NCBI GenBank assembly: GCA_030154445.1
Contig: JAGUQW010000006.1
Location: forward strand, 1 to 64,000
Length of the DNA stretch: 64,000 nucleotides
Origin: Spirochaetota bacterium
GTDB lineage: Bacteria; Spirochaetota; Brevinematia; Brevinematales; Brevinemataceae
Direction: 5' to 3'
The translations under genes were made by a program, and so were the position numbers. Positions 2,633 through 8,949 of this stretch are shown piece after piece (the stretch's first letter is position 1; the number at the start of each line of letters is the position of its first letter). Under the pieces are notes generated by a model that was given only the letters and a program-made list of their open reading frames with translations, ran no database searches and was not told the origin of the DNA.

Positions 2633-4039
2633 ATGATAGAAATGGTAACTTCTGTAAAAACACAAGCTTTGTCTCAAAAAAAACATCAGTCGAAACTTTC
2701 GGCTAATAATACATTTCAAGATCAATTAGATAAATCAATTTCTAATCAAAAAAATCTTTCAGAAGAATTACGAGAACAAAAAATATATGATAAAAAAAAA
2801 GAATTAGAATCTTTGAAAACAAAAATAAAAGCTTTGAAAGACGAAAAAAATGAAAGTTTGGACGCTAAAGAACATAATAAATTATTAGAAACCCTTGCTC
2901 CTTTAGAAGAATTGTTAGATTTTTTACAGAATATGATCGAAAATGTTGATTCTGTAGAAGAATCATCTGTAATTAAATCAAGTACAGAATCTGTGGATTT
3001 GTTAACATGGATAGACACTGTAACAAACTTTATAGAAATTTCTGCTGACGAGATTTCTAGTACAGGTGTTTTAAATGATACTAGTTATTTTTCGGCACAA
3101 AAATTTTCTTTTTTATTAGAAAATATAGATGATCAGCCTGATCTATTATTACAAAAAAATGATCTAACGACTATGAATACAATGATGAATATTTTTGTTG
3201 AATCAAATAATATTATTAATAGCTCTATTCAAGACGAGATACTTATGACAGCAATGCTAAATGAAATGGAAGTGATTGAGCCAAGTAAATTAGACATAAG
3301 TCTTTCTGAAGAAAATATTTTAAAAAAAGATCTTACAATGAAATCTTCAGAATTTAATATGAATAAAGATGATTCCTCTGATAGTGATCCCAATAATATA
3401 GAGCAAAAATTAGCTATTAAAGATCTAAGAACAAAAAGTGCTAATCCATTAAATGAAGCAGTAGAACAATCTTTTAGTTTAGAAAATATAGATAATGTAG
3501 TAATAGCTACAGAAGCCGAATCTACAACTAATACAGAAATACAATCTTCAAAAAATTCTATTAACAATGAACACACGACTATTGCTCAAAAATTATATAC
3601 TTCTTTGTCATCTTCCGTGTCAAGAGTTCAAGTAGAAGCTTTGATGCAAAATATGGCAGGTAGAATGTCCATCTTATTACAAGATGGTAAAAATGAGCTT
3701 AGGATGAAATTGACCCCTCCAGAACTAGGTCAAATGAAATTATCATTTATTACACAAGATAATATTATGGTAGGAAAAATAGTTGTTGAAACCTTAGAGG
3801 CGAAAATTTTTTTTGAGCAAAATTTGGATAATCTTAGAGAAAGTTTAGCACAATCTGGGGTGAAACTGGGAAATATAGATATTGATTTGGGATCGCAAAG
3901 TGATTTTTCTTCTGATATGAAAGATGAATCAGAGGGTTTTTTGCAAGCAGTTAGAACAAAATCATTAGATAATAATATAGAACAACAAACAGAACGAAAA
4001 TCAATGGTGCGTGATTTGTTAGTTGATTTCACGGCTTAA
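2633..4039 (+). CDS. fliK: Flagellar hook-length control protein FliK
   Basis: A 468-residue protein. The N-terminal 330 residues are hydrophilic, low-complexity and coiled-coil-like (rich in E, K, S, N), as expected for the ruler part. The C-terminal domain from about residue 340 contains LRMKLTPPELGQMKLSF and the following Flg_hook pattern, which switches export specificity when the hook reaches full length. There is no signal peptide, as expected for a substrate of the flagellar type III system. It is the first gene of the motility operon, 49 bp ahead of flgD; FliK and FlgD are often neighbours in spirochaetes. The ATG at 2633 follows AGAGG; an ATG three codons downstream is possible. Confidence 0.85.
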   Translation: MIEMVTSVKTQALSQKKHQSKLSANNTFQDQLDKSISNQKNLSEELREQKIYDKKKELESLKTKIKALKDEKNESLDAKEHNKLLETLAPLEELLDFLQNMIENVDSVEESSVIKSSTESVDLLTWIDTVTNFIEISADEISSTGVLNDTSYFSAQKFSFLLENIDDQPDLLLQKNDLTTMNTMMNIFVESNNIINSSIQDEILMTAMLNEMEVIEPSKLDISLSEENILKKDLTMKSSEFNMNKDDSSDSDPNNIEQKLAIKDLRTKSANPLNEAVEQSFSLENIDNVVIATEAESTTNTEIQSSKNSINNEHTTIAQKLYTSLSSSVSRVQVEALMQNMAGRMSILLQDGKNELRMKLTPPELGQMKLSFITQDNIMVGKIVVETLEAKIFFEQNLDNLRESLAQSGVKLGNIDIDLGSQSDFSSDMKDESEGFLQAVRTKSLDNNIEQQTERKSMVRDLLVDFTA

Positions 4040-4088: not shown

Positions 4089-4682
4089 ATGATTGGTGCA
4101 GTAGCAAGTGGTTTACCAACGACTATTTCAGATATGGATAAGAGAGTCTTGGATCAAAATATAAATACTTTTAACACACAATTAAAAGAAACTCAAAAAA
4201 TAGTGAGTAAAAACTCTCTTGGAGAAGCAGATTTTCTCACCTTATTGGTAACACAATTAAAAACACAAGATCCAACCAAACCAATGGATGATAAAGCTTT
4301 TATTGGTCAAATGGCACAATTCACTTCTTTAAAACAAATGAGTTCTGTAGCTGATAATCTCAAAAATTTCACTAAAGAATTTGATTTTACAAAATCAGTA
4401 TCCTTAGTGGGTAAAGATGTTGTATGGACTGATGAAATGGGTAATATGAGTGAGGGAAAAGTTGATTCAGTTCTTATGAAAGATGGATTTAGCTATCTTA
4501 AAGTAAATAATCAAACAGTATCACTCAAAGAAATTACAGAAGTCAAAAACACAGAATCAGCTCTTATAAAAGCTACAGCAGAAAATTTACCAGAAAAAAA
4601 TAATGAAACAGTCTCTTTTAAAGAAAATATTGAAAAAGCTACAGTAGAAATTAGTGCAGAAGAAAATTTACTAGAAGATTAG
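4089..4682 (+). CDS. flgD: Flagellar hook capping protein FlgD
   Basis: A 197-residue hook-assembly scaffold that caps the growing hook and allows FlgE to polymerise. The conserved N-terminal signature is present: LGEADFLTLLVTQLKTQDP, PMDDKAFIGQMAQFTS, and a C-terminal part beginning SVSLVGKDVVW. The tail after about residue 155 is acidic and probably disordered. A strong ribosome-binding site (AAAGGAG) precedes the ATG. Its position between fliK and flgE fits the spirochaete motility operon. Confidence 0.93.
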   Translation: MIGAVASGLPTTISDMDKRVLDQNINTFNTQLKETQKIVSKNSLGEADFLTLLVTQLKTQDPTKPMDDKAFIGQMAQFTSLKQMSSVADNLKNFTKEFDFTKSVSLVGKDVVWTDEMGNMSEGKVDSVLMKDGFSYLKVNNQTVSLKEITEVKNTESALIKATAENLPEKNNETVSFKENIEKATVEISAEENLLED

Positions 4683-4747: not shown

Positions 4748-6121
4748 ATGTTAAGATCATTGTATTCAGGTGTATCAGGTCTTCAAAATCATCAAACAAG
4801 AATGGATGTTATTGGTAATAATATTTCCAATGTGAATACCACAGGTTTTAAAAAGAGTCGTGTAACTTTTCAAGATATTTTATCACAAACAACATCTGGT
4901 GCTGCTAAGCCATCAGAAACTCGTGGTGGTGTCAATGCGAAACAAGTTGGTCTTGGTATGAGTGTGGCCGCTATTGAAACACTAATGACTCAAGGTTCTA
5001 TGCAAACAACAGGTAAAAATACAGATATAGCTATTACAGGTGAAGGATTTTTTGTTGTTCAAGAAGGTGATCAAACATTCCATACAAGAAATGGTAATTT
5101 TATGCTTGATAGGGATGGAACTCTTGTAAACTCTAATGGTATGAAAGTTCAAGGTTGGACATCTGAACTTTATCCAACAGGAGAATACATGATTGATACA
5201 GCAGCCCCTGTGGGAGATTTGAAAATAGAACCGGGTCAAAAAGTAGAAGCTAAAGAAACTGCTGGTGTGAAATTTAGATCAAATTTAGATGCTAATTCTG
5301 CTATATTACCAGAAACAGCATCTGCTGCTGAAAATATGTTAGCAACGCATGGTACTTCTATTGATATCTTTGATCCTTACGGAAATAATATCAGATTATC
5401 TTCTAATTTTAAAAAAAATGAGTTGAATTCATGGCAAATGTCTTTAGCTATGACTAATGAAGATGGTACAGTATTAGAAAATGTTCAAGTTAGTATTAAT
5501 GGTGCGAAATTAGATACAAATAATGTTTTAGATCTTTCTTTTAATACTAATGGAACATTAGCTGGAGCTACAGAAGCTGCTGGAGCTGCTGGGGATACTC
5601 TACAAGAAGGGCAATTAGTAGCAACTGTTACTTACGATCATCCTGATGGAACACAACAAAGTTTCAACTTAGAGCTTGGAGAGGTAGGAAGTGTTAAAAA
5701 TTCTATTACTCAATTTGCATCACGCTTTACAACAGAAGCTTATTTCCAAGATGGAAATACTATGGGTTATATGGAAAGTTTCAATATCGATGATACAGGT
5801 GTTATTACCGGAGTAATGGATAATGGTGTTCGTCGTCCTTTAGGTCAATTAGCTATGTCATCATTTACTAATGCTGCAGGTCTTGAAAAAGTTGGTAACT
5901 CCTTATATATGAGTTCTAATAACTCTGGAGATGCTATGATAGGTGAATCTGGATTGATGGGAAGAGGTTCTTTATTTGTTGGAGCTTTAGAAATGTCTAA
6001 TGTGGATCTTGCTGAATCATTTACAGATATGATAGTAACAGAAAGAGGCTTTCAATCTAATTCAAGAGTTATTACAACAAGTGATAACATGCTTCAAGAA
6101 ATATTATCTCTCAAGCGTTAA
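4748..6121 (+). CDS. flgE: Flagellar hook protein FlgE
   Basis: A 457-residue hook subunit. The N-terminus (LRSLYSGVSGLQNHQTRMDV, then IGNNISNVNTTGFKKSR) and C-terminus (VDLAESFTDMIVTERGFQSN) are the conserved axial-protein coiled-coil segments. The length is typical of spirochaete FlgE. In Treponema denticola, hook subunits are linked by lysinoalanine between Cys178 and Lys165. Here Lys165 is present (EPGQK, 161-165), but residue 178 is Ser (codon TCA at 5279-5281, in FRSNLD), and the whole protein contains no cysteine. Asn179 is retained. The usual crosslink chemistry should therefore be absent or altered. Periplasmic flagella are inferred from the lineage. Confidence 0.96.
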   Translation: MLRSLYSGVSGLQNHQTRMDVIGNNISNVNTTGFKKSRVTFQDILSQTTSGAAKPSETRGGVNAKQVGLGMSVAAIETLMTQGSMQTTGKNTDIAITGEGFFVVQEGDQTFHTRNGNFMLDRDGTLVNSNGMKVQGWTSELYPTGEYMIDTAAPVGDLKIEPGQKVEAKETAGVKFRSNLDANSAILPETASAAENMLATHGTSIDIFDPYGNNIRLSSNFKKNELNSWQMSLAMTNEDGTVLENVQVSINGAKLDTNNVLDLSFNTNGTLAGATEAAGAAGDTLQEGQLVATVTYDHPDGTQQSFNLELGEVGSVKNSITQFASRFTTEAYFQDGNTMGYMESFNIDDTGVITGVMDNGVRRPLGQLAMSSFTNAAGLEKVGNSLYMSSNNSGDAMIGESGLMGRGSLFVGALEMSNVDLAESFTDMIVTERGFQSNSRVITTSDNMLQEILSLKR

Positions 6122-6172: not shown

Positions 6173-6427
6173 ATGATAGAGTTAACACGATTAAATGATA
6201 CAAAAATAAGTATAAATCCTTATCAAGTAGAAATGATGGAGAATAACCCAGATACTGTTATTATAATGAACTCTGGAAAAAAATATCTAGTAAAAGAAAA
6301 ACCAATCGACATAGAAAAGAAGTTTTCAAATTTTTTAGCTGGAAGTATTTATAAGGCTATTGTTCACTCTAAAGGGATAGTCGATAAAAAAATATCTCTA
6401 TATGGTACGGAAGAGAAAGGGGAGTAA
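6173..6427 (+). CDS. flbD: Flagellar protein FlbD
   Basis: An 84-residue protein with the compact SwrD/FlbD pattern IELTRLNDTKISINPYQVE followed by NPDTVIIMNSGKKYLVKE. The family is encoded beside motA/motB in spirochaetes and Firmicutes; in Bacillus, SwrD supports stator torque. Nothing suggests it is the unrelated Caulobacter transcription factor of the same name. Only three bases separate its stop from motA, which implies translational coupling. Confidence 0.9.
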   Translation: MIELTRLNDTKISINPYQVEMMENNPDTVIIMNSGKKYLVKEKPIDIEKKFSNFLAGSIYKAIVHSKGIVDKKISLYGTEEKGE

Positions 6428-6430
6428 ACT

Positions 6431-7204
6431 ATGGAAAAAGGATCAATAATAGGCATTTCATTATGTGCTATCTTAATGTTTGGTGGAATGTTTATTTCTG
6501 CTGGATCTTTAAGCCCATATTGGGATTTGACTTCAATTTTTATTACTATTGGAGGGTCAATTGGAGCAACTTTACTTGCTAATCCATGGGGAACTTCTAT
6601 AAAAATGGGTGCATTATTTCAATTAGCAATGAAAAATCCTGAAAATGAAGTAAGATCATTGATTGATACATTATTAACTTTTGGTGAAAAAGCTCGTAAA
6701 GAAGGAGTTTTGTCATTAGAAGATGATGTTTCTGAAATTCCAGATCCATTTTTACAAAAAGCAATTCGACTTGTTGTTGATGGAACAGATCCAGAAGTTG
6801 TAAAAAGAATTATGTATAATGAATTAGACAAATTAGATACGCGTCATCAAAGCTATTCACAATTATTTGCAGATTGGGGAGCTTATGGTCCAGCTTTTGG
6901 AATGATTGGAACATTGGTAGGACTTATTGCTTTACTTGGAAATCTTTCTGATACAGCCGCGTTAGGTTCAGGTATGGCGGTAGCTTTAATTACAACAATG
7001 TATGGATCTATTCTTGCCAATTGGATTTGTATACCTATAGCATCAAAATTAAATGTTAATAATAGTGGTGAGGTGCTCATGAAAGAAATTATTCTTGAAG
7101 GGGTACTTTCTATACAAGCTGGTGATAATCCGGCTATTCTTCGTGAAAGATTGAATTCATTCTTAGGTGCTAACGAAAGACGCGGAGATAGTGTAGAAGA
7201 ATAA
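6431..7204 (+). CDS. motA: Flagellar stator protein MotA
   Basis: A 257-residue inner-membrane protein with four transmembrane segments: two near the N-terminus and two in the AYGPAFGMIGTLVGLIALLG to LITTMYGSILANWICIP region. The cytoplasmic loop between them (about 75-150) carries the charged residues that touch FliG in the family. The proline in GPAFGM matches the conserved functional proline of TM3. With MotB it forms the ion-driven stator. A GGGGAG ribosome-binding site overlaps the end of flbD. Confidence 0.95.
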   Translation: MEKGSIIGISLCAILMFGGMFISAGSLSPYWDLTSIFITIGGSIGATLLANPWGTSIKMGALFQLAMKNPENEVRSLIDTLLTFGEKARKEGVLSLEDDVSEIPDPFLQKAIRLVVDGTDPEVVKRIMYNELDKLDTRHQSYSQLFADWGAYGPAFGMIGTLVGLIALLGNLSDTAALGSGMAVALITTMYGSILANWICIPIASKLNVNNSGEVLMKEIILEGVLSIQAGDNPAILRERLNSFLGANERRGDSVEE

Positions 7205-7228: not shown

Positions 7229-7972
7229 ATGGCTGAAGGTGAAAAAAAATGTCCCAAGTGTACAATTGGTGCTCCTGCTTGGATGGCAACTTATGGAGAT
7301 ATGGTTACCTTACTTCTTACATTTTTTATTGCTCTTATGGGAACACAAGTGCCGGAAGGTCAACAAGTTCAACTTATTTTATCAGCCTTTGATGGAAGTT
7401 TAGGGAATCTTGATGGAGGAAATACTCTTTCTCAAGGAGTTCTCGCAGATATGGGTGCTAGTGTCGAGAGTTTACCTTCTTCTACACAAGGAAAAGGACT
7501 TGCTCGCCATATTTTACAAGTTTCTGATTTGTTCAAACCTGAGATTAAATCTCAAAAAGTGCGGATTGATGAAACTAGTAAAGGCTATAAAATTACTCTT
7601 GCTAGTGATTTCTTTTTTCAACCATCTTCTGCTACTATTGATTATGTAGAAGGAGTCTCATTATTAAGAAAACTTGCAGGCGCTTTACAACAAGGATCTA
7701 CCAATAGTAGATTGGAAGTAATAGGCCACACAGATGCTGGAGCAATTCCTCCTATATCAAAATTAGCCGTTCGATATCCATCAAACTGGGAATTATCTGC
7801 AGGAAGAGCAGCAACAATAGTTCGTTATTTCATAGATTTTGGTTTAGCTCCTGAAAGATTTTTTGTAGAAGGTCGAGCTGAATACGAACCTCTTGAATCT
7901 AATAATACACCTGAAGGTAGAGCTTATAATAGACGCGTAGAAATTTATGTAACTGTTGACAGAGATAGATAA
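7229..7972 (+). CDS. motB: Flagellar stator protein MotB
   Basis: A 247-residue protein with one N-terminal transmembrane helix, APAWMATYGDMVTLLLTFF, in which Asp24 is the expected ion-binding residue. A periplasmic OmpA-like peptidoglycan-binding domain follows (VIGHTDAGA near 165, NRRVEIYV near the C-terminus). The cytoplasmic tail has a CPKC pair, which I recall as common in spirochaete MotB. It is the last motility gene here; the next gene is trxB, so fliL, fliM and the export genes must lie elsewhere. Confidence 0.95.
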   Translation: MAEGEKKCPKCTIGAPAWMATYGDMVTLLLTFFIALMGTQVPEGQQVQLILSAFDGSLGNLDGGNTLSQGVLADMGASVESLPSSTQGKGLARHILQVSDLFKPEIKSQKVRIDETSKGYKITLASDFFFQPSSATIDYVEGVSLLRKLAGALQQGSTNSRLEVIGHTDAGAIPPISKLAVRYPSNWELSAGRAATIVRYFIDFGLAPERFFVEGRAEYEPLESNNTPEGRAYNRRVEIYVTVDRDR

Positions 7973-8022
7973 ATTTTAGTACAATATAAGTAAATAGAGT
8001 GCTTAAAAAGGATGAGTTCATT

Positions 8023-8949
8023 ATGAATGAAATTAAAGATTTAATTATTGTTGGTGCTGGACCAGCAGGTATGACAGCAGCTCTTTATATAGCTCGTACT
8101 GGGAAATCTGTATTACTTTTTGAAAAACTAGCAGCAGGTGGACAAGCTGCGTTAACGCATAGTATCGACAATTATCCTGGATTTGAAGAAGGGATTAATG
8201 GTATGGATTTGTCTGATAAAATGCGTCAACAAGTAGAACGATTTAATGTGATTTTTGAATATGATAGTATAGAATCTATTTCTCAAGATACTAATACTAA
8301 AATTTATACGGTTATCTCAGGAATGGGTAATTCTTTCCATGCCAAATCTGTCTTGATTACTTCTGGGACAACATCCAAACGACTTGGGGCAAAAGGAGAA
8401 GATAAATTTTTTGGAAGAGGAATAGGAACTTGTGCTGTATGTGATGGTGCTTTCTACAAAAATAAAATTGTTGCAGTAATTGGTGGTGGAAATTCTGCTC
8501 TTGAAGAATCATTGTATTTAGCTGATATAGCAACAGAAGTATATATTATTCATAGACGAAAAGAATTTAGAGCGGATCAATTCATACAAGATAGAGTCAA
8601 AAATCATCCCAAAATCAAACTCATTACAGATACAGTGGTAGAAGAATTTGTTGGTGAACAAAAACTAAATAAATGTATTGTTAAAAATATAATAACAAAT
8701 AATGTGACTGAATTAATACTTGATGGTGTTTTTTTATATGTAGGATTAGATGCGAATACAAGTTTTCTTGATTCTCAATATAAAGACAAAAGTGGATTTA
8801 TTGTTGTTGATATGGATAATAGAATAAACAAAAATGGTTTGTTTGCTGCAGGCGATTGTTGTGCAGGTACTATAAAGCAAGTTATTATAGCTTGTGGAGA
8901 TGGAGCAAAATCTTCTTATAGTATTAATAAATATCTCAGTGAAATATAA
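8023..8949 (+). CDS. trxB: Thioredoxin reductase
   Basis: A 308-residue cytosolic flavoprotein that passes electrons from NADPH to thioredoxin. Motifs in order: FAD-binding VGAGPAGMTAALY near the N-terminus, redox pair CAVC (Cys137/Cys140, close to E. coli 135/138), NADPH-binding GGGNSALEESLYLA, and the C-terminal FAD motif GLFAAGDCC. ATG 8023 is chosen because AAAAAGGATGA lies just upstream and the product then begins at the Rossmann fold; an in-frame GTG at 7999 would add eight residues. It follows motB by 50 bp and may be read through from the motility operon. Confidence 0.94.
   Translation: MNEIKDLIIVGAGPAGMTAALYIARTGKSVLLFEKLAAGGQAALTHSIDNYPGFEEGINGMDLSDKMRQQVERFNVIFEYDSIESISQDTNTKIYTVISGMGNSFHAKSVLITSGTTSKRLGAKGEDKFFGRGIGTCAVCDGAFYKNKIVAVIGGGNSALEESLYLADIATEVYIIHRRKEFRADQFIQDRVKNHPKIKLITDTVVEEFVGEQKLNKCIVKNIITNNVTELILDGVFLYVGLDANTSFLDSQYKDKSGFIVVDMDNRINKNGLFAAGDCCAGTIKQVIIACGDGAKSSYSINKYLSEI

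Follow-up and report, generated by a model that had tools for sequence, protein, structure and literature searches.

Spirochaetes tested so far need the lysinoalanine link between subunits of the flagellar hook protein FlgE in order to be motile, and this link has been put forward as a drug target. In Treponema denticola FlgE (Cys178/Lys165; PDB 6ndt–6ndx) the link is formed from a cysteine, and T. denticola and Bb cells without it are non-motile (Lynch et al., 2023, PMC10691653). In Leptospira FlgE, serine replaces this cysteine; in L. interrogans, Ser179 becomes joined to Lys166 as lysinoalanine in both the recombinant protein and native flagella, with Ser179 also linking to Lys145 and Lys148, and the C178S mutant of T. 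denticola FlgE likewise yields lysinoalanine (PMC10691653). Serine is the poorer leaving group, and Leptospira FlgE requires pH 10–11 in vitro and reacts less than T. denticola FlgE; unknown cellular factors were suggested by the authors for the serine reaction, although recombinant Leptospira FlgE reacts alone (PMC10691653). Furthermore, the FlgE of Brevinema andersonii (A0A1I1E638) is listed as K165/S178/T328, with Thr328 given as a conserved catalytic/regulatory residue (PMC10691653). Both Ser178 in Brevinema FlgE and a hook crosslinked by serine-derived lysinoalanine are thus already in print and are not new.

In this study, the flgE gene of a Brevinemataceae genome (GCA_030154445.1) was analyzed within a window of 64,000 nucleotides, which is the whole stretch of DNA considered (contig JAGUQW010000006.1, positions 1 to 64,000). 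The gene lies in an ordinary flagellar operon with the order fliK–flgD–flgE–flbD–motA–motB, the members of which, together with the codons of interest in flgE, are as follows.

2633–4039, + strand: fliK, hook-length control (Pfam PF02120, 7.8e-16)
4089–4682, + strand: flgD, hook cap (Pfam PF03963, 8.5e-19)
4748–6121, + strand: flgE, flagellar hook protein, 457 amino acids, no Cys (open reading frame, Pfam and T. denticola match)
5240–5242, + strand: Lys165 codon AAA, proposed Michael donor for lysinoalanine (invariant in 162/162 spirochaete FlgE)
5258–5260, + strand: Thr171 codon (invariant across the spirochaete alignment)
5279–5281, + strand: Ser178 codon TCA, at the dehydroalanine-forming position (a Cys/Ser-only column phylum-wide)
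5282–5284, + strand: Asn179 codon AAT (invariant; a structural residue required for T. denticola crosslinking, PMC10691653)
5729–5731, + strand: Thr328 codon (Thr or Ser in every alignment row at this column)
6173–6427, + strand: flbD (Pfam PF06289, 7.3e-19)
6431–7204, + strand: motA (Pfam PF01618, 3.2e-30)
7229–7972, + strand: motB (Pfam PF13677 and PF00691)

Two further genes on the + strand flank this group: a glycoside hydrolase family 19 (chitinase class I) gene just 5' of fliK (1369–2430; Pfam 1.5e-29), and a gene for a thioredoxin reductase-like pyridine nucleotide-disulphide oxidoreductase with a CAVCDG motif immediately after motB (7999–8949).

Four Pfam domains score above the cut-off in the window FlgE (FlgE_D2, Flg_bbr_C, FlgE/F/G D1 and Flg_bb_rod), giving it the FlgE/F/G rod-hook architecture with FlgE_D2 by which FlgE is recognized. 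A preliminary description of the DNA had reported Lys165, Ser178 (TCA), Asn179 and a complete lack of cysteine, in a numbering identical to that of T. denticola. The translation of the open reading frame confirmed these residues, with the EPGQK motif starting at 5228, and the numbering was verified by alignment with PDB entries 6ndx and 6ndw, in which GQK...RSNLD of the window protein lies opposite GQK...YA[A/C]NLD of the T. denticola chains. The window protein resembles T. denticola FlgE in being the same protein with the same domain architecture, in Lys165 and Asn179, and in its similarity over the crystallized part (match to 6ndx, 2.7e-71), but has Ser178 where T. denticola has Cys178. It thus carries all three sequence features of crosslinked spirochaete FlgE (Lys165, Cys or Ser at 178, and Asn179) and stands outside the Cys-type FlgE of Treponema, Borrelia and Brachyspira. 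Among the T. denticola chains, 6ndt_B has Ser and 6ndx_B Ala at position 178; these are presumably engineered variants.

With Leptospira FlgE the window protein has in common, at the site itself, serine at the dehydroalanine position, the canonical lysine 13 residues earlier, asparagine as the next residue and no cysteine, with Lys166/Ser179 of L. borgpetersenii FlgE aligning with Lys165/Ser178 of the window. The named L. borgpetersenii protein has serine encoded by TCG; one L. borgpetersenii record that carries flgD and flgE (L242; NZ_CP012031.1, 27720–29966) was deposited as plasmid lbp1. However, Leptospira FlgE, in which the crosslink has been demonstrated, also uses Lys145/Lys148, whereas the window FlgE has Thr144 and Tyr147 at the equivalents of these second acceptor lysines. 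Leptospira-style alternative acceptors are therefore absent from the window FlgE, and only the canonical Lys165 partner would be available at these places. B. andersonii FlgE has K165/S178/T328 at exactly the positions of the window protein (PMC10691653), the nearest relatives of which are from uncultured Brevinema MAGs (89% and 79% FlgE identity), so that the window belongs to Brevinema. The shared K165/S178/T328 numbering suggests that it may come from B. andersonii or from a very close relative.

The reading that we consider very probable is that the window protein is a Ser-type spirochaete FlgE whose hook makes an ordinary Ser178–Lys165 lysinoalanine; the poorer leaving group and the lack of the second acceptor lysines weigh against it. 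Once the hook is assembled, Ser178 would eliminate water (β-elimination) to give dehydroalanine, to which the ε-amine of Lys165 from the adjacent subunit would add. The product would be the same crosslink as that formed from Cys178 in Treponema, with water instead of H2S as the leaving group. The residues and their strict conservation were seen here, and the serine reaction is known from Leptospira and from T. denticola C178S; its occurrence in Brevinema is what we infer from them. Of the two options raised in the preliminary description, no covalent hook or dehydroalanine formed from serine, the latter is much the better supported; its characterization as new chemistry does not stand, since the Leptospira and C178S reactions have been published (PMC10691653).

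Ser178 could in principle be an artefact of sequencing, or be accompanied by another flgE with Cys elsewhere in a genome whose assembly is 95.5% complete and in 18 contigs. Converting TCA to TGT or TGC takes two substitutions, which excludes a single base-call error as its source. Furthermore, Ser178 is present in 18/18 genomes of the window's class, encoded by TCA and TCT in congeners and by TCC in a sister genus, and this class-wide occurrence rules out base-calling error. A search for FlgE_D2 in this 95.5% complete, 18-contig assembly gave one gene and no second, Cys-bearing flgE. An error or a second copy is thus hardly credible.

The distribution of the two residues was surveyed using the window FlgE as a query against 393 spirochaete genomes, 350 of which matched; FlgE genes were picked to cover family-level groups, with named relatives added. 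All 241 loci of a first set, which included duplicates, had Lys165 and Asn179, with only Cys or Ser at 178. The set used for the alignment and tree comprised 162 rows (161 distinct) from 56 family-level groups. The preliminary description had proposed asking how often position 178 is serine among spirochaetes: in this alignment it is Ser in 72/162 and Cys in 90/162, with no other residue, while Lys165 and Asn179 are each present in 162/162. By family-level group, 29 have only Ser, 25 only Cys and two are mixed (f14 and f38). Wider sampling of f14 gave Cys everywhere but in one genome (G043), and genus g41 of this family contains a congener pair, with Ser (TCA) in L088/L277 from G043 and Cys (TGT) in L091/L278 from G051, that is a natural pair for comparing the two chemistries. 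Ser178 was also found in some of the MAGs that carry the label Spirochaetia, Sediminispirochaeta or Spirochaetaceae (L172, L175 and L213). Ser178 is therefore about as common as Cys178 across the sampled phylum, and it is this distribution that the present analysis adds. Because roughly half of the family-level groups sampled have serine, the Cys form of FlgE is less universal than usual descriptions say.

Conservation at the two positions bears on whether the covalent hook has been lost, with Ser178 as a non-reactive stand-in for Cys and ordinary contacts holding the hook together. The weaker leaving group (PMC10691653) is in keeping with such a loss; however, if the crosslink had been abandoned Lys165 and Ser178 would be expected to drift, and no drift is seen. 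Lys165 and Asn179 are retained in 72/72 Ser rows, although most of the domain around them varies freely: of the 193 columns between 138 and 330, no more than 12 are invariant in these rows, including 165, 171, 178 and 179, and the top residue of a column has a mean frequency of 0.50. In ten FlgE proteins from outside the spirochaetes (Actinomycetota, Bacillota and Pseudomonadota), by comparison, M, A, T, V, Q, L, I or a gap stands at position 165 and one of G, A, F, T and I at position 178, with Asn179 mostly retained. Since none of the ten has Lys165 or a Cys/Ser178, the Lys165 and Cys/Ser178 pair is a spirochaete trait, for which Asn179 alone is undiagnostic; unlike in these proteins, position 178 is never Ala, Gly or Thr in the spirochaetes sampled. 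In addition, Leptospira forms the link in vivo from serine, and T. denticola and Bb cells without the link are non-motile (PMC10691653). Loss of the covalent hook is thus improbable, and Ser178 appears from these alignments to be a conserved functional alternative, although conservation at 165 and 178 marks constraint and not the chemical product.

A maximum-likelihood FlgE tree was built with column 178 removed; on this single-gene, unrooted tree, nine Cys/Ser changes are needed, at least six of them forced by well-supported branches, compared with ∼53 for shuffled labels. When serine is split by codon family (48 TCN and 24 AGY among the 72 Ser rows), the number of changes rises to 15. Both families occur inside the window's class, which is entirely Ser, and within single Ser clades, so that residue 178 has been retained while its codon changed. 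Since passing between TCN and AGY requires two substitutions, possibly via Cys (TGY) or Thr, position 178 is under selection for Cys or Ser. Residue 178 has therefore switched between Cys and Ser at least 6–9 times, with nothing else tolerated.

That Leptospira FlgE reacts slowly in vitro, at pH 10–11, and that unknown cellular factors were suggested by the authors (PMC10691653) are reasons to consider that a dedicated dehydratase or another cellular factor activates Ser178 in Ser-type spirochaetes. Nevertheless, the flgE neighborhood holds no candidate enzyme, and recombinant Leptospira FlgE reacts by itself (PMC10691653). The window's genome has no match to the lantibiotic dehydratase N-terminal, LanM-type DUF4135 or LanC-like families; the first two are weak negatives, as they were also without a match in any control genome. 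Such a helper is highly improbable. Within FlgE itself, the largest Ser/Cys frequency differences among the columns listed are at, for example, 80, 99, 201, 319, 352 and 364, and no residue among those columns tracked Ser versus Cys in a consistent direction over three to six independent pairs, a comparison of low power. It is rather doubtful, if conceivable, that Ser-type spirochaetes including Brevinema use an unrecognized factor or local environment to dehydrate Ser178 at neutral pH, with the Cys/Ser switches following that factor. An ordinary lysinoalanine between Ser178 and Lys165 is the preferred reading.

Ser178 is thus no oddity of Leptospira, being about as frequent as Cys and reached by repeated switches. 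Because of this frequency, inhibitors or assays based on the Cys/H2S reaction may be a poor match for much of the phylum.
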